Source: Rhizobiales bacterium IMCC20636 (GTDB lineage: Bacteria; Pseudomonadota; Alphaproteobacteria; Rhizobiales; GCA-2746425). From it: a stretch of DNA of 64,000 nucleotides. The stretch's first letter is position 1. Each line of letters opens with the position of its first letter. Shown in pieces: positions 556 to 30,619 of this stretch. The notes under the pieces were generated by a model. That model had not been told where the DNA came from, ran no database searches, and worked only from the letters and a program-made list of their open reading frames with translations. Position numbers and translations under genes: made by a program. The stretch is taken from positions 3,689,001 to 3,753,000 of the forward strand of contig CP018226.1 of the NCBI GenBank assembly GCA_016865015.1. The letters are read 5' to 3'.

Positions 556-2183
556 GGTCTGGCAGCCTCCATTTCAAGTCGCGCTGCACGGCGCTTTGCC
601 TGCACAGCCGGGTCGGGGTCAAGACTCGCGGCCAGCAATGCGCGCGTATAGTCATCACGCGGCGTCTCGAAGATCTCTCGCACTGTGCCCTCTTCGACAA
701 TCCTGCCCTGCTGCATCACCACAACCCTGTCTGCAAAATCGCGGACCACAGGCAGGTCGTGAGCGATGAATATGTAGGAAAGCCCGAACTCGTTGCGCAA
801 GCCTTCCAGCAGATCAATCACCTGTGCCTGAATCGAAACATCAAGCGCAGACACAGCCTCGTCACAAACCACCAGTTTGGGTTCCAGCGCCAGCACTCTG
901 GCAATTGCAATGCGCTGTCGCTGTCCACCGGAGAACTGGTGTGGGTAACGCCGGGCATGATCTGCGGACAGGCCAACCAGTTCCAGAAGTTCGGCCACAC
1001 GGTCGCGCCATTTGACCTTGGGCAGAATCTCGGGATGGATCGCCCAGGCTTCGGAAATCAGCTCATAGACGGACATGCGCGGATTAAGTGACTGGGTTGG
1101 ATCCTGAAATACCATCTGGATTTCCCGGCGGATGCCGAACAGTTCCTTTGGCGACATCTGGAACAAATCGCGTCCGTTATAGAAAGCGGCCCCGCTTGTT
1201 GGCTCTTCCAATCGCAACAGGGTTTTAGCAAGGGTGGATTTGCCCGACCCACTTTCGCCGACAATTGCGACTATTTCACCGGGCATAACCGTCAGGCTCA
1301 CATCCTTGAGCGCTTCGATAGTGCCAAAATTCTTGGTGACATTCTCCAACCGCAACAATGGTTGGCCGCTGGCAGCAAGGGGTTCAGCCATCTCACCACT
1401 GCCGGGCGCTGCCGCAATCAAACGCTTGGTATAGGGATGCTGCGGATTGGCATAGACTTCGGCTGCGGGACCGGTTTCAACGATTTCTCCGGCATTCATG
1501 ACAACCACATTATCGGCCACTTCGGCCACCACGCCCAGATCATGGGTGATCAACAGCAATCCCATGCCAGTTTCGAGTTGCAGTTCTTTCAGCAAAGCCA
1601 AAATTTGAGCCTGAACCGTCACGTCCAATGCTGTGGTCGGTTCATCTGCAATCAGGATATCGGGTTTGAGCGCCAGTGCCATTGCAATCATCAGACGTTG
1701 ACGCTGGCCGCCGGAAAACTGATGTGGATAGGCCTTCATTCTGACTTCGGGGTCGGGGATACCGACCCGGCCCAGCAATTCGATTGCGCGCCGTTTTGCC
1801 TGATCTGAGGGCATGCCATGGGTGGTCATCATCTCGATGATCTGCCAACCAACGCTGTAAACCGGATTGAGATGCGCCAGAGGGTCCTGAAAGATCATGG
1901 CGATCCTGGCACCATTGATGGCGCGCCGCTCTTCACTGGGCATCTCCAGCAAGCTCTTGCCGCGATACAGCACTTCACCGCTGGTTATTTCACCGGGCGG
2001 CATATCAATCAGATTCATCACCGCTGACGCCGAGACCGATTTTCCCGAGCCGCTTTCGCCCAGAATGACCAGTGTTTCGCCCGGGTCGAGATGAAAGCTG
2101 ACACCCTGAACTGCTTTCACCTGACCATGCAGCGTATGGAACTCCACCGACAGGTTCCGGACTTCCAGCAGATGCGGGCTCAT
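552..2183 (-). CDS. ABC transporter, fused double ATP-binding protein (DppD-DppF type)
   Basis: Cytoplasmic ATPase of an oligopeptide/nickel-type importer with both nucleotide-binding domains in one 543-residue chain. Half one has Walker A GESGSGKS at 42-49, signature FSGGQRQR near 156, Walker B ILIADEP near 177 and switch His in LLITHD. Half two repeats these with GESGSGKS near 309, FSGGQRQR near 417 and LVVCDEA near 437. PxHPYT(K/R) tails, usual in Dpp/Opp ATPases, follow the first domain. The start overlaps the upstream permease stop by 4 bp and the stop overlaps the next ATG, so it sits mid-operon. Cargo could be peptides, but related systems carry glutathione, sugars or opines. Confidence 0.93.
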   Translation of the reverse strand: MSPHLLEVRNLSVEFHTLHGQVKAVQGVSFHLDPGETLVILGESGSGKSVSASAVMNLIDMPPGEITSGEVLYRGKSLLEMPSEERRAINGARIAMIFQDPLAHLNPVYSVGWQIIEMMTTHGMPSDQAKRRAIELLGRVGIPDPEVRMKAYPHQFSGGQRQRLMIAMALALKPDILIADEPTTALDVTVQAQILALLKELQLETGMGLLLITHDLGVVAEVADNVVVMNAGEIVETGPAAEVYANPQHPYTKRLIAAAPGSGEMAEPLAASGQPLLRLENVTKNFGTIEALKDVSLTVMPGEIVAIVGESGSGKSTLAKTLLRLEEPTSGAAFYNGRDLFQMSPKELFGIRREIQMVFQDPTQSLNPRMSVYELISEAWAIHPEILPKVKWRDRVAELLELVGLSADHARRYPHQFSGGQRQRIAIARVLALEPKLVVCDEAVSALDVSIQAQVIDLLEGLRNEFGLSYIFIAHDLPVVRDFADRVVVMQQGRIVEEGTVREIFETPRDDYTRALLAASLDPDPAVQAKRRAARLEMEAARP

Positions 2184-3106
2184 TGTTTTTTGCCTTTTAT
2201 TTCCAGCCGCCAGCGCTGTACGGGGTCAAGCGCAACACGCATCCAGTTTGACACAAGGTTGAGGCTCAGCGTGGTCAGAATGATGGCCAGACCTGGCCAG
2301 AAGGACAACCACCAGGCATTGGTCAGATACGGCCTGCCCTGCGACACCATAAGGCCCCAGGTGATTTCGGGCGGCTGGATGCCGATGCCCAGAAACGACA
2401 ATGCACTTTCCGCCAGCATGACAAAGGCAAAGTCCAATGTTGCAATGGTCAGCAGGGTTGGAAACACCATGGGCAGGATGTGGCGAAAGATGATGCGGAC
2501 ATCAGAGGCACCCATGACACGGGCCGCCTGAACAAACATTCGCTCACGTATCTCCAGCACTTCGGCGCGGGTCGTGCGCAGATAGATCGGAATTCTGGTA
2601 ATGGCCAGAACAATGATGATGTTGGTGACCGATGGCGACAGCATGTAGAGCACAATCACCGCCAGCAACAGCGAGGGGAAAGACATGATGACATCGGCCA
2701 GCCGCAGGATGATCTGACTTGCCCGGGTTTTTGTATAGCCCGCGATCAGGCCAAGGGTGCTGCCAATCACCATCGAAAAGAGGACAGCGCCGGTTGCCAC
2801 CATGATCGTGTTGGTCGATGCGACAATGATGCGTGCCAGCAAGGGCCGACCAAGCGCGTCGCCGCCCAGCACGAAAAGCCACCCCTTGGCCAGGTCAAAG
2901 GGGGGAGAATTACGCCCGCGGAGGTTCTGTTTCGTCGCTGCATCATCCAGAAGCGATGGGCCGAAGATTGCACAGAACATCACAATGATCAGAAAGACCA
3001 CCGCGACCAGCGCGATTTTGTCATGCCACAGCATACGAACCGTCTGTGCCAGGGCATTCGGGGATTTATGCATCGCATTATCGGGAATTTGTGCCGTATC
3101 GGTCAT
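2180..3106 (-). CDS. ABC transporter permease, DppC type
   Basis: Inner-membrane permease of 308 residues. It has the DppC-family N-terminal extension, a first membrane segment near residues 30-50, a long periplasmic stretch, and a C-terminal block of about five segments with the EAA coupling loop (RVMGASDVRIIFRHILPM). The ending (SLNLVSNWMRVALDP) is characteristic of this subfamily. It pairs with the DppB-type permease 9 bp upstream and with the fused ATPase downstream, which it overlaps by 4 bp. Role inferred from family and operon position. Confidence 0.92.
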   Translation of the reverse strand: MTDTAQIPDNAMHKSPNALAQTVRMLWHDKIALVAVVFLIIVMFCAIFGPSLLDDAATKQNLRGRNSPPFDLAKGWLFVLGGDALGRPLLARIIVASTNTIMVATGAVLFSMVIGSTLGLIAGYTKTRASQIILRLADVIMSFPSLLLAVIVLYMLSPSVTNIIIVLAITRIPIYLRTTRAEVLEIRERMFVQAARVMGASDVRIIFRHILPMVFPTLLTIATLDFAFVMLAESALSFLGIGIQPPEITWGLMVSQGRPYLTNAWWLSFWPGLAIILTTLSLNLVSNWMRVALDPVQRWRLEIKGKKQ

Positions 3107-3115
3107 GATGATCCC

Positions 3116-4030
3116 CTAATACCGAATCCGAGGATCCAGCACCGAATAGGCGATGTCGATCAAAAGGTTCATCAGAAAAATAGCCATGGCAGACACCATA
3201 ATTGCTGCCAGGACTACGGTGAAATCACGTTGCAGAATGGAATCGATCATGAGTTTTCCAACACCGGGAAAGCCAAAGATCGTCTCGACCACAACCGCGC
3301 CATTCAGCATCCCGGCTGACAGATCGCCAATCACGGTAATGACAGGCAGCAAGGCGTTACGCAGGGCGTGAACGAATATGATTGGGCGGACCCTGACGCC
3401 TTTGGCGCGCGCGGTCTTTACATAGGCCGAGGACAATGCAGTCATCATGGAACCGCGAACAACCTGCAGCACCAGACCGAAGGGGCGGATGAACAGCACC
3501 GCAACCGGCATGATCCAATGCCAGATCGTGCCGGTTCCAGAGGTTGGCAGCCAGCCCAGATTTACCGAGAATAGAACGATCGCAACGATGGCAATCCAGA
3601 AGTCCGGCGCACTGGCACCGATCAGAGACAGAAAGGTGGCTACACGGTCAAAAATGCCGCCCGCATAGAACGCGGCCAGGGAACCGATGATTATCGCGGA
3701 GGTGGTCACGAAGAAGATTGTTGTCAACGCCAGGATCAGTGTCCACTGGAAGGCTGCCAGAACCACTTCAAGTGCCGGACGCGCCTTGCGAATTGAATCT
3801 CCGAAGTCGAGGTTCAGAATGTCCCAGACGTAATGGGCGAATTGCACCAACAACGGATCGTTCAGACCATGCAATTCGCGAAACCGTTCCCGACTGTCCA
3901 GCGAGGCGTCAAGCGGGAGAAACAGTGCGGTCGGATCTCCGGTGAGGCGTGACAGAAAGAAGACCAGGACGACAAGTCCGATGAGCGAAAGACCGCTTGC
4001 AAAGGCTCGTTTCCCAATGAAATGCCGCAT
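3116..4030 (-). CDS. ABC transporter permease, DppB type
   Basis: Inner-membrane permease of 304 residues with six predicted segments. The first segment (about residues 12-30) ends in the family motif FFLSRLTGDPTALFLP, and the C-terminus SVLDPRIRY is typical of DppB. The EAA loop is around YVKTARAKGVRVRPIIFVHALRNAL. It is the first membrane gene after the binding protein; the two are separated by 294 bp holding a hairpin and a 227-bp inverted-repeat element, so whether it is still co-transcribed with the binding protein is open. Confidence 0.92.
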   Translation of the reverse strand: MRHFIGKRAFASGLSLIGLVVLVFFLSRLTGDPTALFLPLDASLDSRERFRELHGLNDPLLVQFAHYVWDILNLDFGDSIRKARPALEVVLAAFQWTLILALTTIFFVTTSAIIIGSLAAFYAGGIFDRVATFLSLIGASAPDFWIAIVAIVLFSVNLGWLPTSGTGTIWHWIMPVAVLFIRPFGLVLQVVRGSMMTALSSAYVKTARAKGVRVRPIIFVHALRNALLPVITVIGDLSAGMLNGAVVVETIFGFPGVGKLMIDSILQRDFTVVLAAIMVSAMAIFLMNLLIDIAYSVLDPRIRY

Positions 4031-7346: not shown

Positions 7347-8360
7347 TTGTCATTTTTTAATCGTAGTCTGAAGGCCGCAGTCGTTTCTGCTGCCTTGATC
7401 GCAAGCGCAGGGGGCGTCGCCTCGGCGCAGGAAATTTCATTCTTTACCATCGGCACCGGTGGAACCGCCTATACCTATTATCCTGTTGGTGGTGTTATCG
7501 CCAATGCGATTTCCAAACCGCCCGGATCGCGTGAATGCGGCGAAGGTGGCTCTTGCGGTGTTGAAGGTTTGATTGCCTCCGCCGTATCCTCACGTGGTTC
7601 AGTGGACAATGTAAACGCCATACTTTCCGGCTTGCGGAATTCCGGGTTTGCCCAGTCTGACGTGGCCTATTGGGCTTATTCCGGCACCGGCACCATGGAA
7701 GGCAAGGAACCCGCTACCGACCTTCGCACCATCGCGGCGCTGTTTGAGGAACATATTCATCTGGTGGCATTGGCCGACAGTGGAATCAATTCTGTGGCCG
7801 ATCTGAAAGGCAAGCGGGTTTCGCTGGATGAGCCAGGTTCAGGGACTTATGTGGATGCAAAGTTGATCCTGGAAGCCAATGATGTTGCGTTGGAAGACGT
7901 CACTGCCGAAGCCCTCAAGGGTGGTGCTGCAGCGGAAGCTTTGCGCAACGGCAAGATCGACGCCTTTTTTGTTGTGGCAGGATATCCTACCGGCGCAGTG
8001 GTTGAGCTTGCCTCGGCCGCTGACATCAAACTGGTCCCGATTGATGGCGATGGCGCCGCCGCATTGACGGATAAATACGGTTTCTTCGCTTCCTCCGACA
8101 TCCCTGAAGGGACTTATGAAGGTGTGGATGCGACAACAACCGTGGCAGTTGGTGCGCAATGGTTTACCTCTGCCAAGGAAGATGACGAACTGATCTACAA
8201 CATCACGAAGGCACTCTGGAACGAACAGACCCGCAAGCTTCTGGATGTTGGACATGCCAAAGGAAAAACCATCACGGTTGACACCGCATTGAACGGTGTC
8301 GGCGTTCCGTTGCATGCTGGCGCTGAACGTTTCTACAAAGAAGCAGGCGTGTTGAAATAA
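7347..8360 (+). CDS. TAXI-family TRAP transporter solute-binding protein
   Basis: Periplasmic binding protein of 337 residues. A signal peptide (residues 1-27, ending GGVASAQ) leads into the TAXI hallmark FFTIGTGGTAYTYYPVGG near residues 31-48, then the second-lobe segment LKGKRVSLDEPGSGTY near 155. TAXI proteins deliver substrates such as glutamate or other carboxylates to a fused TRAP permease, which follows after a 78-bp gap containing a terminator-like hairpin. Start is TTG at 7347 with GGAG 8 bp upstream; no ATG or GTG nearby keeps the whole signal peptide. Confidence 0.93.
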   Translation: MSFFNRSLKAAVVSAALIASAGGVASAQEISFFTIGTGGTAYTYYPVGGVIANAISKPPGSRECGEGGSCGVEGLIASAVSSRGSVDNVNAILSGLRNSGFAQSDVAYWAYSGTGTMEGKEPATDLRTIAALFEEHIHLVALADSGINSVADLKGKRVSLDEPGSGTYVDAKLILEANDVALEDVTAEALKGGAAAEALRNGKIDAFFVVAGYPTGAVVELASAADIKLVPIDGDGAAALTDKYGFFASSDIPEGTYEGVDATTTVAVGAQWFTSAKEDDELIYNITKALWNEQTRKLLDVGHAKGKTITVDTALNGVGVPLHAGAERFYKEAGVLK

Positions 8361-8438: not shown

Positions 8439-10505
8439 ATGGTGTCAGACATACATACAGAACTGACGCCGGAAGAACTGGCTGAAATTGAACGCAAATA
8501 TGACCCGGAAACCGCCTTTCGTCCGATGGGCAAACAGTTAGGTTTCGTGATCTCTGCAGTCCTTGTGGCGATGGCAGTGTATCATTTCTACGCTTCGGGA
8601 TTTGGCTTGATCCGCGAACTTCTGCACCGCGGCATCCACCTGTCATTCGTGCTGGGTCTTGTGTTCATATTTTTTGGCTGGCGCGGAGAAGACGGTCGGG
8701 AGCCACGCACCGACTGGCTGCGGCTTCAGGGCATTCCCTGGCTTGATATCGTGTTTTCGTTTCTGGCCGTTGGAGCTGCACTTTACCTGCCGCTCCTGCC
8801 GCCTGAAATTCTGGCCGAACGCGTCGGCAACCCTTCGCAAACCGATGTATTGATGGGCACAGCCCTGTTGGTGCTGACCCTGGAGGCTGCGCGCAGATCA
8901 ATCGGGCCAACCTTGCCAATCATCGCACTCTTATTCGTTGGTTTCGCGATCTTCGGGCCCATCATGCCCGGCGCGCTCAAGCATGGCGGCACGTCCTGGC
9001 TGGGCTTGATCAACCACCTCTATTTGACAAATCAGGGCATTTACGGCGTGGCTATCGGTGTGATGGCGCAATATGTGTTCCTGTTCATCCTGTTTGGCGT
9101 TCTGGCGACGCGTGTCGGTCTGGGACAATTGTTCATCGATCTGGCTATGGTCATTGCGGGGCGATATTCGGGAGGTCCTGCCAAAGTCGCGATTTTCTCA
9201 AGCGCTTTCATGGGGACAATTTCGGGGTCCTCGATTGCCAATACGGTCACAACCGGCGCGCTGACCATCCCGGCGATGAAACGTGTGGGCTACCCGGCTC
9301 ATTTCGCGGCGGCAACCGAAGCCACAGCCTCGACCGGTGGACAGATCACGCCTCCCATCCTGGGTGCGGCGGCGTTCATCATGGTGGAATATCTCGAAAT
9401 CCCGCTTCGCGATATTCTGGCCGCGGCCCTGTTCCCGGCATTGCTGCATTATTTTGGTATTTTCATCATGGTCCATCTTGAGGCCAAGAAGTTGGGGCTT
9501 CGCGGCCTGCGTGCGGATGAACTGCCAAACACCACCATGGTGCTGAAGCAACACTGGCTCAGTATCATTCCGCTGGTCATTCTGGTTTACCTGATCCTGT
9601 CGGGCCGGACCCCCGACTTTGCTGCAGTTTACGGGATCATTGCCTGTGTGGTCGTCGGCTTCCTCAATCCGGTCAACCGTTTGACCATTCCGGACCTTTG
9701 GAACAGCCTTGCGACCGGTGCCAGAAGCACACTGGCTGTCGGTGCAGCTGCGGCAACGGTGGGCGTTATCGTTGGGGTCGTAACCCTTACCGGCGTTGGC
9801 TTTCGGCTTGGCTATGTCGTGGTGCAAACCGCTACTGATATCGGCACCATTGTCGGCAATTTCTGGCCGCTCAGCTATTTTACGATTGAACAGTGGGCGC
9901 TGTTTTTCTCGCTCGTGCTGATCGCAATCGCCTGCATTGTGATGGGCGCAGGCATTCCGACAACAGCAACTTATATCATCCTTGTTGCAGTCGCCGCACC
10001 CGCGCTTGCCCAGTTGCAGGTCCAGCCATTGGTCGCGCATTTCTTCGTTTTCTACTATGGCGTTTTGGCGGATATCACACCACCGGTTGCGCTTGCTGCC
10101 TATGCAGCAGCCGGTATTGCCGGATCGAATCCGTTCAAGACAGGTAACACGGCCTTCAGGCTTGGAATCGCCAAGGCTTTGGTGCCGTTTGTATTCGTCT
10201 ATTCACCGGCCTTGCTGCTGGTTGCCGATGGGTTCACCTGGTGGGCATTCACTGTCACTCTGATCGGCGCAATGATGGGAATCGGAGCTATTGGCGTGGC
10301 ATTTTCCGGATATTTCCTGACACATCTGCCAAAGCTCCAACGCTGGTGGGTGGGTTTCGCCTCATTTCTGTTTATTGCACCGGGCCTGACCACCATGGGC
10401 ATCGGGATTCTGGCGATCCTGCCAATTTTCCTTCTTCAACTCAGGGCCAGAGCCAGGGCTGTGAATGATCCGGCCCAGGCAGGCGGACTACCAGATCAAA
10501 GCTGA
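8439..10505 (+). CDS. TRAP transporter permease, 4TM/12TM fusion
   Basis: Inner-membrane protein of 688 residues in which the small (DctQ-like) and large (DctM-like) TRAP subunits are fused, as is normal for TAXI systems. A soluble N-terminus (about 35 residues) is followed by hydrophobic segments throughout. DctM signatures are clear: FMGTISGSSIANTVTTGALTIPAMKRVG and ATEATASTGGQITPPI around residues 250-310, and GAGIPTTATYIILV near 505. It couples substrate uptake to a sodium or proton gradient using the TAXI protein upstream. No ATPase is expected or seen. Confidence 0.95.
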   Translation: MVSDIHTELTPEELAEIERKYDPETAFRPMGKQLGFVISAVLVAMAVYHFYASGFGLIRELLHRGIHLSFVLGLVFIFFGWRGEDGREPRTDWLRLQGIPWLDIVFSFLAVGAALYLPLLPPEILAERVGNPSQTDVLMGTALLVLTLEAARRSIGPTLPIIALLFVGFAIFGPIMPGALKHGGTSWLGLINHLYLTNQGIYGVAIGVMAQYVFLFILFGVLATRVGLGQLFIDLAMVIAGRYSGGPAKVAIFSSAFMGTISGSSIANTVTTGALTIPAMKRVGYPAHFAAATEATASTGGQITPPILGAAAFIMVEYLEIPLRDILAAALFPALLHYFGIFIMVHLEAKKLGLRGLRADELPNTTMVLKQHWLSIIPLVILVYLILSGRTPDFAAVYGIIACVVVGFLNPVNRLTIPDLWNSLATGARSTLAVGAAAATVGVIVGVVTLTGVGFRLGYVVVQTATDIGTIVGNFWPLSYFTIEQWALFFSLVLIAIACIVMGAGIPTTATYIILVAVAAPALAQLQVQPLVAHFFVFYYGVLADITPPVALAAYAAAGIAGSNPFKTGNTAFRLGIAKALVPFVFVYSPALLLVADGFTWWAFTVTLIGAMMGIGAIGVAFSGYFLTHLPKLQRWWVGFASFLFIAPGLTTMGIGILAILPIFLLQLRARARAVNDPAQAGGLPDQS

Positions 10506-26824: not shown

Positions 26825-28051
26825 ATGGAGCTAATGAATCAACCCTTTTCTGGACAGCTTGGGAACCGTCTGATCGAATTGCTTGATTCAGCAGATTTTC
26901 ATACTTTGAATATCGCAGTCGCCTTCGCAAAGAACAGCGGCGTCCTCAGAATCAAGGATTCACTTGAGAGATTTAGAGAGCGCGGCGGAAAAGTAAATGT
27001 TCATGTCGGCGTAGATCTTGGCGGGACGTCGTATGAGGCTCTTACAGCTTTGCTACTTCATACCGACACCTTGAATGTAGTACATTCTGAAAACGGCCAG
27101 ACGTTCCACTCAAAAATCTACCAGTTTTCAGGAAGGGACAAGGAGCTGATAGTTGTTGGCTCACACAATCTGACCGGCGGCGGTCTGTGGACCAACTTCG
27201 AAAGCTCAGTTCACATGTCGGTAAATAGATCGAGTGCCAGTGAGATGCCAATACTAAGGAGGCTGGACGACTACATTGGGGAGCTGTCTTCACTCAAAGA
27301 CTCATTCATGTCGATAGGTGCTCAAGACGACATCGATAAGCTGCTTCAAAACGGCTATATATTTAAAGAAGTCGCTGAGCGAGTGCGCTTGGCGACATCT
27401 GGTACACAGGAAGGAACTCGGGAACGTCTATTCGGCAAAGGAGCTCCAGCAACGCGACCTCGCATCACCGCGCCGGAGATAGAGAAGACGGTGGCGGTTT
27501 CTGTGGCACCCGTGGGACCGACCTCTTTTCCCCCAAGTGACGAGGGACAGACTATTTGGTTTGAAACCAAGAGAATGACTGGCGGATCACGAAATATCCT
27601 TGATCTATCAAAGAGGTCCCTGGTTGAGCTCGGAGACCCCACTGACACCCCATTTGATTTAGGCGAGCCACCGTTCATGCGTGGTGGAGTCGAGTTTTTC
27701 GATCTAAATCCTGCAGCAACCAACCAGTCCAAAAATATCACCCTCAACTTCGAAGGGATTGACTATATAAGTAATACAATACTTTTCCCAAGTGGGGATA
27801 AAGCAAATGGCACGTGGCGTCTCCAAATTAAGGGAACTAGTTCTTCTGGAAGGGGGATCACAGAAGCCCTTAGAACCAAAGGTGAGGAACACTATTTGGT
27901 CAAAAAGATAGTCACCTTCACTAAGATACAGAGTGATTACTACTTCATGTCTGTGTTCCCGGAATCTGAACTTGAGAGTTTCAAGGCAGCTTCACGTATC
28001 TTGGCTCGAAATGGGGCTACTAAAAATGCTAAGCTCCTCGGTCTTCTCTAG
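26825..28051 (+). CDS. PLD-type restriction endonuclease (NgoFVII/BfiI-like)
   Basis: A 408-residue predicted type II restriction endonuclease. The N-terminal half is a phospholipase-D-type nuclease with one HKD motif: His95-Ser-Lys97, then VGSHNLTGGGLW with Ser113 and Asn115 and a Glu at 126. A single motif means two subunits must pair to form the active site, as in BfiI; such nucleases need no metal ion. The C-terminal part (about 295-408) resembles the B3-like DNA-recognition domain of this family (ISNTILFPSGDKANGTWRLQIKG). Start ATG 26825 has AAAGGAGG. It converges on two methyltransferase genes, overlapping the second by 4 bp. Confidence 0.83.
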   Translation: MELMNQPFSGQLGNRLIELLDSADFHTLNIAVAFAKNSGVLRIKDSLERFRERGGKVNVHVGVDLGGTSYEALTALLLHTDTLNVVHSENGQTFHSKIYQFSGRDKELIVVGSHNLTGGGLWTNFESSVHMSVNRSSASEMPILRRLDDYIGELSSLKDSFMSIGAQDDIDKLLQNGYIFKEVAERVRLATSGTQEGTRERLFGKGAPATRPRITAPEIEKTVAVSVAPVGPTSFPPSDEGQTIWFETKRMTGGSRNILDLSKRSLVELGDPTDTPFDLGEPPFMRGGVEFFDLNPAATNQSKNITLNFEGIDYISNTILFPSGDKANGTWRLQIKGTSSSGRGITEALRTKGEEHYLVKKIVTFTKIQSDYYFMSVFPESELESFKAASRILARNGATKNAKLLGLL

Positions 28052-28872
28052 AAGCGACTCAGCCACTCTTGGTGTTTTCCTTTCCGAATTCCGCTAATTC
28101 CGCCTTTTGCCCCGCCGAATGTGAGCATTAGAGCATCGTCATTCAGTGGGCTTCCTTCCGAAACGAACAACGGAACCTGATTTGCATGGCGGAAGTGGTT
28201 TATAAACGATGTAACATCGAAGCCAAATGCATACCCCGTCGTGCTTTGATATGGCGGGTCTACATACACGACAGCATCGCTAGGAAAGGGTTCTTCAAGC
28301 AATGTCATGATATCCATTTTGAGACAAGTCACGCCTTTCATTCCATTTACCAAGGCATCAATTCGGCGACGCAGCTCGGTCGGAGAGGGTTGCATGGGAT
28401 TGGCGGGGCTGCGGCGTATACTAGTCTCGGTTGGCTCCCAATAGTTCCGAAAACAGGCATTCGCCCAGCGTTCTCCGTTGCGCCAAATTTGTTTCCCTCC
28501 AAAGGAGCAGGCCTGAAGCACAGGATAAAGTTCTGCTTCATGCTCGCCCATTGGAGGCGTTGAGAGCGCTGACATGTGAGCTTTAAAATCGCGTTTATCA
28601 CTCGGCAAAACGGAAAGAAACTGATCGAAAACATCCATGTCGAACGTGCCAGAGCCAATGGCGGACCAGAAGGCCCCCCAAGAGCTGATGTCGAGCATCC
28701 AAATACGGTTTGGGTCGACGCCTCTGTTAACCAGTTCGACTGACACTGCGCCAGATCCGCAGCATAGGTCGTAAAATCGCGAGTTCGGCCCTGGAGCGGC
28801 ATCGAGAAGAAGGTCGACGATCTGGGCCGCTACGCGCTGTTTGCCACCCTGATATGCGCAGGGCACTCGCAT
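28048..28872 (-). CDS. DNA adenine N6-methyltransferase, D12/Dam class
   Basis: A 274-residue DNA methyltransferase. Motif X-like YQGGKQ at 7-12, the S-adenosylmethionine-binding FYDLCCGSGAVSVEL (motif I) near 33-47, and catalytic DPPY at 205-208 identify the D12 class of m6A enzymes. It should modify one strand or half of the site recognised by the neighbouring endonuclease. The frame could begin at TTG 28884, overlapping the upstream methyltransferase stop; ATG 28872 is preferred because YQGGK then sits at the usual distance from the start. The 3' end overlaps the convergent endonuclease gene by 4 bp. Confidence 0.86.
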   Translation of the reverse strand: MRVPCAYQGGKQRVAAQIVDLLLDAAPGPNSRFYDLCCGSGAVSVELVNRGVDPNRIWMLDISSWGAFWSAIGSGTFDMDVFDQFLSVLPSDKRDFKAHMSALSTPPMGEHEAELYPVLQACSFGGKQIWRNGERWANACFRNYWEPTETSIRRSPANPMQPSPTELRRRIDALVNGMKGVTCLKMDIMTLLEEPFPSDAVVYVDPPYQSTTGYAFGFDVTSFINHFRHANQVPLFVSEGSPLNDDALMLTFGGAKGGISGIRKGKHQEWLSRF

Positions 28873-28880
28873 TTGGCAGC

Positions 28881-30128
28881 TCAAGAGGATTTTCTGCGGA
28901 TTAGGATTCGTGCATAAACGCGCCGGCCGTTGATGATGCCGACACCGCCCCTGTCCTCTGTGTGCGCACGATATCTTACCTTTTTAAGGATCTTGGAAGA
29001 TACATTGGTGCGTGCGTTGCCGTTGGCAAGCATAACGATTTCGAACTGATCCGGACTGTATTTGTCGAGGAATGTGATCGGCACGCCCATGATACCGTCG
29101 TAGTCGACAGGAATATTTTGGGTGCGCCCAACGTTGATAGCATCGTAGTTTTCGTAACGTGGGTATTCGTCCGGAGTGTAGAGGCGGGTCAATGTTATGG
29201 GCTCGTGTCGCATGCTGGTTTCCAAGTTAGTGAACCAGCGTACGCCCTTTACCCGGATGAAGCGTCGTCCACTCTCGTCCACACCGCAGCTGGCGGCATT
29301 TAGCGGGTAGCTATCGGGTACATGAAATTTGCGATCCCCGGAGCGGATAGATTCTCCATACCAGACCTTATTGTCACGAAAGAGGGGGAAAACTTCCTTT
29401 GTTGTTGCAGCGTTCATGTTACCAACAATAATAAAATCCTTTTCGTGGCGCCCCAGCAGGGTAATGTACTCACGAAACAGGCTGAAAGGCGGATTTGTGG
29501 CCACTATATCGGCTTCCTCAAGCAAAGCTATGCACTCGTCTGACCGAAAATCTCCATCACCAACGAGATGGTCAAGAGAGTTGCCTGGCATAGCAAACAA
29601 GGACTCTAAATCCAGCGAACCGTCTGGCCTCTCCAGAGGCTCGTCAGGCACTTCGGTTACCACCGCCTTGTAGGCGCCTGTGACCCCCTCTAGTGGATAT
29701 TCTTGTCCCGCGATTGAGGAGTCGTCGTAGCAGGTGGATATCAGCCTCGTAAGCCCGAGCTTGTCGAAATGAAGCGCAAAAAACCGGAAGAAAGCCGACT
29801 CGAAAGGATCATCGCAGTTACACAGTATGGTCTTTCCCTTCAGTTGCTCTCGATGCCTCACCATTTCCTTAGCCACATCGTCGTACTGCGTATAGAATTC
29901 ATCTTTCTTGACGATGAACGCGCGATTGAGTGTCGCGTTTCCGGGTTTCGAGTTTAATTTTGGACGTTCGGTCATAATATCAAACGGTATGGTGCCCTCG
30001 CGAGCGACTGCTTTAAGGAAGGTATTAATTGCGGCGGACATGCTGATGCCAATCTCGTCGAAGACCTCGCTTGCACGCCTCTTAACGTCTAGATCAATGC
30101 GTATTGTCGTAGTGGGTTTGGTCGACAT
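28881..30128 (-). CDS. RelB/DinJ antitoxin-domain fusion to an EcoRI-type adenine methyltransferase
   Basis: A 415-residue fusion. Residues 1-52 (TIRIDLDVKRRASEVFDEIG, then SMSAAINTFLKAVAREGTIPFD) match a complete RelB/DinJ ribbon-helix-helix antitoxin N-terminus, including the closing PFD/E. Residues 65-415 are an EcoRI-type m6A methyltransferase: TLNRAFIVKKDEFYTQ near 66-81, ILCNCDDPFESAF near 101, catalytic NPPF at 212-215. Stand-alone EcoRI methyltransferases start near the KDEFYTQ block, so the first 60 residues are extra. No toxin gene lies nearby. Start ATG 30128 has a GAGAG site; GTG 30137 would add three residues. Two operator-like repeats lie upstream, suggesting autorepression. Methyltransferase call firm, antitoxin domain strong, regulatory role inferred. 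Confidence 0.87.
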   Translation of the reverse strand: MSTKPTTTIRIDLDVKRRASEVFDEIGISMSAAINTFLKAVAREGTIPFDIMTERPKLNSKPGNATLNRAFIVKKDEFYTQYDDVAKEMVRHREQLKGKTILCNCDDPFESAFFRFFALHFDKLGLTRLISTCYDDSSIAGQEYPLEGVTGAYKAVVTEVPDEPLERPDGSLDLESLFAMPGNSLDHLVGDGDFRSDECIALLEEADIVATNPPFSLFREYITLLGRHEKDFIIVGNMNAATTKEVFPLFRDNKVWYGESIRSGDRKFHVPDSYPLNAASCGVDESGRRFIRVKGVRWFTNLETSMRHEPITLTRLYTPDEYPRYENYDAINVGRTQNIPVDYDGIMGVPITFLDKYSPDQFEIVMLANGNARTNVSSKILKKVRYRAHTEDRGGVGIINGRRVYARILIRRKSS

Positions 30129-30150
30129 ATCTCTCACTCTTCATGTGAAA

Positions 30151-30166
30151 TACAATGTAGCACGAT
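30151..30166. promoter_or_regulatory. Operator-like repeat 1 of the methyltransferase promoter
   Basis: TACAATGTAGCACGAT, matching the copy at 30178-30193 at 14 of 16 positions, with starts 27 bp apart. The core ATACAATGTAG is an imperfect palindrome. It lies 23 bp upstream of the ATG, well placed to block transcription or translation. Confidence 0.6.
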
Positions 30167-30177
30167 TTAGTATGAAC

Positions 30178-30193
30178 TACAACGTAGCACAAT
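30178..30193. promoter_or_regulatory. Operator-like repeat 2 of the methyltransferase promoter
   Basis: TACAACGTAGCACAAT. With the base before it, CTACAACGTAG is a perfect inverted repeat (CTAC-N3-GTAG). Ribbon-helix-helix repressors such as DinJ commonly bind paired short palindromes like these. The TTGT... on the minus strand overlaps a plausible -35 region. Confidence 0.6.
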
Positions 30194-30544
30194 ACTAAGA
30201 TGGCGGCTTCACCATTTATTCACCCGAGGCTATTGATCTGCACTGAACTGTAACGGGTTGGGGGCCGAAAACGTTGCTAACTACTACCGTGCTTTCCAGA
30301 TTGGCTACGCCCGTTTCTTGCGCATTGCCTCCATTGGAGACTACCGCGGCTAACGACTGCTTCCTGCCCAATAGAGACCTTGGAATGCGTCCAGATCAAG
30401 CGATGAGGAGCGAACATCACACCTGCCGAAGGTATTCCCGCATCTTCCCGTTTTGGTGTTTACTGTGTGCTTACCATTTATCAAACGACAAAAGTCGAAG
30501 GCATCATGGTCGCGCGCAACATACTGATTTTATGTGGGGATACA

Positions 30545-30619
30545 TGGTGCCGCAGGGGAGGATTGAACTCCCGACCTCGTCATTACCAATGACGCGCTCT
30601 ACCACTGAGCTACTGCGGC
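30545..30619 (-). tRNA. tRNA-Thr (anticodon GGT)
   Basis: A 75-nt tRNA gene with a complete cloverleaf: acceptor GCCGCAG/CTGCGGC, D-arm with AGCTCAGTGGTAGAGC, anticodon arm CGTCA-TTGGTAA-TGACG giving anticodon GGT, T-arm GGGAGTTCAATCCTCCC, discriminator A and encoded CCA. The 3' end faces the restriction island, the usual orientation for islands that integrated at a tRNA 3' end. Confidence 0.97.

Follow-up and report, generated by a model that had tools for sequence, protein, structure and literature searches.

A conserved palindrome upstream of ribbon-helix-helix methyltransferase fusion genes, a putative operator for autoregulation of a restriction-modification cassette

Introduction

On entering a new cell, restriction systems need their methyltransferase before their nuclease, and later the methyltransferase has to be limited lest foreign DNA be protected. 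In the 64,000-nucleotide stretch of DNA analysed here, in the following called the window, the gene of an adenine methyltransferase (M1) starts with a ribbon-helix-helix (RHH) domain and is preceded by a pair of palindromic repeats, which raises the question of whether M1 represses its own promoter through these repeats. A built-in solution has been described for cytosine methyltransferases, which carry an HTH domain (PMC3978073, PMC12707154, PMC3874152). Judged from sequence comparison, this role appears to be taken here by a toxin-antitoxin DNA-binding domain on an adenine methyltransferase. No RHH-methyltransferase fusion with an operator was recognised among the matches listed in the open-licence full-text literature, and the novelty of the arrangement is provisional.

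The cassette and its surroundings

The features of the cassette are listed in Table 1. From the overlap between the two methyltransferase genes, we infer that M1 and M2 form one operon. M2 scores far below the cut-off of the dam model. The profile matches for R (PLDc_2 with 24.9 bits and RE_NgoFVII with 18.6 bits) are both below their cut-offs, other weak matches are to type II and type IV nucleases, and the counterpart on plasmid pA3H10 is annotated as phospholipase D family. The stops of R and M2 overlap by 4 bases, and there is no room for a further gene among M1, M2, and R in the window or on pA3H10, where the opposite strand carries a gene for a hypothetical protein upstream of M1.

Table 1. 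Features of the restriction-modification cassette and its putative control region in the window
Feature	Position	Strand	Description
M1	28881..30128	-	RelB-type RHH domain (about residues 1-57 from the ATG) and EcoRI-type adenine methyltransferase (about residues 67-413)
M2	28048..28884	-	D12-class adenine methyltransferase; PF02086 37.2 bits against a cut-off of 22; start overlaps the M1 end by 4 bases
R	26825..28051	+	Putative PLD-type restriction endonuclease; convergent with M1-M2
Start-proximal operator copy (putative), CGTGCTACATTGTATTTCA	30146..30164	-	36 to 18 bp upstream of the ATG; 14/18 matches to the family palindrome
Start-distal operator copy (putative), TGTGCTACGTTGTAGTTCA	30173..30191	-	27 bp upstream of the proximal copy; 15/18 matches
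Putative extended -10, TGC-TACATT	30154..30159	-	Inside the proximal copy; 4/6 to TATAAT
Putative weak -35, TTGTAG	30177..30182	-	Inside the distal copy, 17 bp upstream of the -10; 3/6 to TTGACA

A tblastn search recovered M1, M2, and R with conserved order and orientation at 16 of the 17 fusion loci, counting the window; the remaining locus (L071) is truncated within M1 by the contig end. At L066 and L084 (contig shared with L002), the contig end truncates R. At L085 (contig shared with L004), the R protein is only 27% identical and M1 and M2 are about 84 to 86% identical, which suggests that the nuclease was swapped under a fixed methyltransferase pair. Split tblastn matches point to apparent frame breaks in M1 and R of a Phaeobacter contig (L064, at about 6633 and 8142-8172) and in M2 and R of a Bathymodiolus symbiont contig (L067, at about 7460 and 8984-9032). 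Both methyltransferase genes of pA3H10 have been cloned and assayed, with no target found in the assays described, and plasmids with these methyltransferases were still cut by EcoRI (PMC10457243).

A tRNA-Thr gene (GGT, 30545-30619, minus strand) lies just upstream of the cassette. The fusion gene is absent from the four other genomes searched of the same genus, which makes a recent acquisition of the cassette probable. An island bounded by the tRNA gene and a duplicate of its end was considered and rejected, as the window contains the tRNA-Thr stretch only once.

The N-terminal domain of M1

Of the two candidate starts of M1, the ATG at 30128 is more likely than the GTG at 30137: the alignment of the fusion proteins begins at that ATG, except for L070, which reads TTA there. 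That the protein begins with an RHH domain had been claimed in the first-pass annotation, and this is upheld by the profile matches, the closest solved sequences, the predicted fold, and the retained DNA-contact residues. The domain matches TIGR02384 (56.3 bits against a cut-off of 45.65) and PF04221 (41.4 against 22.4), and M1 stays below the cut-offs of the narrower antitoxin models NF050811 and NF008412. The closest solved sequences are DinJ proteins. The predicted structure of residues 1 to 63 (mean pLDDT 78.8) has helices at residues 13-26 and 30-44, with the strand unassigned in the monomer. The top Foldseek matches for this model are RelB and DinJ, followed by Arc, with Mnt and Omega lower; the RelB and DinJ matches have a probability of 0.99 to 1.00 but weak E-values of 0.03 to 0.12. 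The AlphaFold model of full-length M1 (13 fusions) has a mean pLDDT of 48.8 and is unusable.

The RelB residues R7, I8, K13, and S28 align with R10, I11, K16, and S31 of M1, where R10, K16, and S31 are kept in all 17 fusions and I11 in 16, L070 having a phenylalanine. Replacements of these four residues in Escherichia coli RelB are described to derepress relBE 43- to >100-fold, with gel shifts lost or weakened (PMC2812701). By sequence and predicted structure, the N-terminal domain of M1 is a RelB/DinJ-type RHH domain. The methyltransferase part matches PF13651 with 429.6 bits over profile positions 2 to 345 of 345, and its TNPPF motif is invariant in 15 of 15 alignment rows.

M1 was also considered as an antitoxin (RelB) of a type II toxin-antitoxin system, and this was rejected: the toxin-binding C-terminal part of RelB is missing, with the profile match stopping at position 53 of 82, and no toxin gene lies beside M1, whose neighbours are M2 and R. 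The sole PF05016 match in the own genome is about 1.7 Mb from the cassette. A RelB-family search of this genome found M1 alone, a result without weight, since the control matched 0 of 14 genomes including E. coli.

In one plasmid record (NZ_MN657080.1, L050, positions 1997-3244), the whole fusion methyltransferase is named RelB/DinJ family antitoxin only. The name fits about the first 60 residues and hides such cassettes.

The repeat pair upstream of M1

The two copies, read on the minus strand, lie just upstream of M1 with a start-to-start spacing of 27 bp, and they are identical at 14 of 16 positions in the 16-bp register and at 18 of 21 in a longer register. The annotated pair of 16-bp copies with 14 identical positions, 27 bp apart and directly upstream of the RHH fusion gene, is thereby confirmed by alignment, and when the 200 bp upstream were shuffled 300 times with dinucleotides preserved, a repeat as good within 60 nt never arose. 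The CTAC-N3-GTAG-like core proposed for both copies holds in part: CTAC-N3-GTAG is exact in the start-distal copy (CTAC-GTT-GTAG), whereas the proximal copy reads CTAC-ATT-GTAT, and the conserved unit that emerges from the comparison of homologues is instead a 19-bp palindrome, TGTGCTACA-N-TGTAGCACA. The spacing of 27 bp corresponds to about 2.6 helical turns, so that the two copies face different sides of the DNA.

The core GTGCTACNTTGTA occurs exactly twice in the 4.79-Mb genome, both occurrences being this pair. Allowing one mismatch adds five further places, and a reversed control pattern is found at 17 places with at most one mismatch, so that only the exact pair stands out in the genome.

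Conservation across fusion loci

We compared 17 distinct fusion loci, namely the window, three viral contigs, plasmid pA3H10, and 12 genome contigs. Their titles include Brenneria, Serratia, Pseudomonas, Escherichia, Phaeobacter, Alloalcanivorax, Citrobacter, Erwinia, and a mussel symbiont, together with several MAGs, host names being given as titled in the records. Alignment A6 and the comparison of fourfold-degenerate sites cover 15 of the 17 fusions (without L064, with its frame breaks, and L071, at its contig end), alignment A7 covers 13, and alignment A9 covers 15 (without L050 and L070).

The absence of the repeats in front of close homologues would have spoken against an operator, and each of the 17 fusion promoters, the window included, carries at least one copy, the best one matching TGTGCTACA-N-TGTAGCACA at 13 to 18 of 18 positions. 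With the same scoring, the upstream regions of 42 non-fused EcoRI-type methyltransferases and of 11 RelB-like genes reach 9 to 12, and the 13 R-gene upstream regions reach 8 to 11 and hold no operator site. The consensus is derived from the same fusion promoters that it scores, so this comparison is not blind. The non-fused set comprises 42 of 45 viral loci (partial matches at L040, L046, and L047 being left out), at least two of which (L005 and L031) have fewer than 200 upstream bases, and the RelB-like loci come from the same genome scan, their match covering the RelB-like part only. Shuffled fusion promoters reach at least 13 in 38 of 3400 cases, with 14 as the largest score, so the five of 17 promoters with scores of 13 to 14 are unconvincing singly, but the set as a whole is convincing. 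Within the sets compared, high-scoring sites are confined to fusion promoters.

Mean pairwise identity between loci (ungapped, with the proximal copy as anchor) reaches 0.82 in the proximal 19-mer, compared with 0.39 in the distal place, 0.33 between the copies, 0.44 in the leader, and 0.25 to 0.29 in three blocks upstream of the pair. Fourfold-degenerate codon sites of the fusion genes have a mean identity of 0.48 (range 0.33 to 0.75; 105 pairs, 15 genes), and beyond -75 the sole alignable pair of promoters is L003 and L062. The operator-like element is conserved well beyond neutral expectation in varied bacteria.

These comparisons bear on two other explanations. The element might be the methylation target of the cassette's methyltransferases, with promoter methylation rather than RHH binding tuning expression. 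Such control exists in other systems, for example AhdI (review among PMC3978073, PMC12707154, PMC3874152), and plasmids with the pA3H10 methyltransferases were still cut by EcoRI (PMC10457243). However, the conservation spans 13 to 19 bp in two symmetric arms, which is longer than usual type II targets, and the element is absent before the 42 non-fused relatives of M1, following the RHH domain and not the methyltransferase domain; we therefore rate this explanation as very unlikely. A host or phage transcription factor other than M1 might also bind the site. Against this, the site accompanies the cassette across varied bacteria, a plasmid, and viral contigs with unrelated flanks, and the exact core is found nowhere else in the genome of the window, which makes one common host factor unlikely and the explanation extremely improbable.

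Pattern searches provided an independent check. Among 2.9 million viral contigs, the single-site pattern matched four, three of which are known fusion loci, and the paired pattern matched two, both fusion loci. The fourth contig with a single-site match (L129) matches no cassette gene; TTGACA precedes the same TACATT there by 17 bp, and the match resembles a promoter that fits the pattern by chance. The viral scan with the N-terminal alignment gave 45 loci, with residues 1 to 99 matched in the three known fusion contigs only. Among the best 60 of 78 matching plasmid records, pA3H10 alone was matched from the start of the RHH domain, and two matches begin inside it (H19 from residue 29 and H20 from residue 41). 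In the 13 phage records, no match extends to the RHH domain, and a near-identity search of E. coli complete genomes with the L063 fusion gene gave no match.

Two similar sequences were seen at other loci. Upstream of dinJ in E. coli K-12 (L131, 1533-1552, minus strand) lies TGAGCTACAAT, which closely resembles the left arm of the fusion palindrome. A clostridial RelB-like locus (L082) has an imperfect palindrome, TGTCATACATTGTGGTATGAT, which has a similar centre (ACA-N-TGT) and matches the fusion operator at 12 of 18 positions; it lies about 25 to 45 bp ahead of the RelB-like match at 1034.

Palindrome anatomy and pairing

Over 25 intact copies, the symmetric positions read YG-NNN-TACA-N-TGTA-NNN-CR, a count that leans towards the consensus because nine degenerate copies were left out (the proximal copy of L069 and the distal copies of L061, L062, L063, L068, L070, L071, L003, and L050). 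The right arm TGTA has one column conserved in all 17 fusion promoters and three columns in 16, and a later C is conserved in 16. In the pA3H10 copy, the palindrome is perfect about the central base.

A proximal copy with at least 13 of 18 matches is present in 16 of the 17 fusion promoters, the exception being L069. The distal place, 26 to 28 bp upstream, reaches at least 12 in 10 and at least 13 in nine promoters when the best of seven registers is taken, and both copies reach at least 13 in eight. The pairing of palindromes annotated for the window is present there, and it is not obligatory in the family. In the aligned promoters, a single 19-bp palindrome close to the start codon is the usual arrangement, with the pair as an optional elaboration.

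The Citrobacter locus (L070, 5960-6190) combines the TTA at the start-codon position with unusual substitutions in the RHH domain and weak operator copies (13 and 9 of 18), its proximal copy being the weakest after that of L069. RHH domain and operator may be decaying together here.

Promoter elements

Candidate promoter elements are found inside both copies. In 16 of the 17 fusion promoters, TGC-TACAWT precedes the ATG by 19 to 33 bp, and the -35 in or near the distal copy is poor, with a mean of 3.1 of 6 matches for the best of three spacers. A stricter sigma-70 consensus scan of 30100-30545 found no promoter at its thresholds.

According to a third explanation, the conserved sequence is a core promoter only, with the extended -10 TGCTACAWT and a -35 in the upstream copy, and the RHH domain acts elsewhere. 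The part in the left arm could persist as an extended -10 alone, in line with its position in 16 of the 17 promoters, and the non-fusion viral match L129 resembles an ordinary promoter. The right arm (16 to 17 of 17) and the later C, however, are beyond any -10, the good distal copies retain the left arm though they are not at the -10, and the pA3H10 copy is perfectly palindromic. At L069, moreover, the proximal place reads TATATT and the palindrome is lost, but an intact palindrome lies 27 bp upstream, so promoter and palindrome are separable. A core promoter only is hence an unlikely account of the conserved sequence, to which we attach little weight compared with an operator bound by M1.

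Proposed autoregulation by M1

We regard it as highly probable that the repeats serve as an operator through which a type II-like restriction-modification cassette regulates itself, in that M1 would repress its own M1-M2 operon. The comparison of homologues supports the autorepression proposed in the first-pass annotation. The RelB-type RHH domain of M1 would bind the 19-bp palindrome. The 19-mer can be divided into two TGT-NNN-ACA blocks at a distance of 10 bp, a bipartite layout as in relO, which makes two RHH dimers side by side per 19-mer probable. With the proximal copy overlapping the putative extended -10 and the distal copy the putative -35, bound M1 would exclude RNA polymerase, and M1-M2 transcription would fall as M1 accumulates. 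No operator copy was found in the 200 bp upstream of R, so the supply of R would not be directly repressed.

If this is true, domain capture would join the two great families of addiction modules. The defined 19-bp site makes the proposal simple to test and could aid the finding and naming of such cassettes.

A further step, which we consider speculative and rather doubtful, would be that M1 is a one-protein sensor of the methylation of its own genome. Unmodified targets would hold M1 off the operator, leaving the operon fully active when it enters a new host, and once the genome is methylated, free M1 would occupy the RHH operator and the operon would be shut down. Methylation-dependent repression has been reported for M.EcoRII (review among PMC3978073, PMC12707154, PMC3874152). 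If M1 did act as such a sensor, a toxin-antitoxin DNA-binding domain would have been captured to time the entry of a restriction system, in convergence with M.EcoRII.

Comparison with known systems

In C-protein restriction-modification systems, a dedicated DNA-binding domain gives feedback on the promoters of the system. The C gene is separate, whereas here no such gene lies between the three genes and the candidate regulator is part of M1.

RptR is a small repressor of type I restriction-modification islands, with the 6-bp palindrome TAGCTA repeated in the promoter, and is described as conserved across bacteria (PMC12255303). Short palindromes that recur in the promoter are a feature which this restriction-modification island shares with the M1 cassette. 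RptR differs in being a separate protein of a type I system, and the words "ribbon" and "RHH" are absent from the main text of that article (PMC12255303).

With RelB/RelE and DinJ/YafQ, M1 shares the RHH family and the DNA-contact residues, and autoregulation of its own promoter, as in these systems, would be a further likeness. The core hexad of RelB is [A/T]TGT[A/C]A, and the half-sites of relO abut without spacing (PMC2812701). The hexad resembles the ATGTA/TTGTA half-site of the fusion operator, whose 19-bp sites, in contrast to the abutting half-sites of relO, can stand 26 to 28 bp apart. Unlike RelB and DinJ, M1 is without the toxin-binding C-terminal part and has M2 and R as neighbours.

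In arrangement, M1 resembles the M.SsoII/M.EcoRII group, M.SsoII/M.Ecl18kI, M.EcoRII, M1.LlaJI, M.MspI, and M.ScrFIA being described as self-regulating methyltransferases (PMC3978073, PMC12707154, PMC3874152). As in this group, a DNA-binding domain is placed N-terminally on the modification enzyme, and a palindrome distinct from the methylation site lies near the enzyme's own promoter, which for M1 is a putative one. Negative feedback on the methyltransferase gene is the logic of that group, and the same logic would apply to M1. The parts differ, with an HTH domain on cytosine-5 methyltransferases there and a RelB-type RHH domain on an EcoRI-type adenine methyltransferase here, where the cassette also has a second methyltransferase, a convergent PLD-like R, and a 19-bp site in one to two copies.
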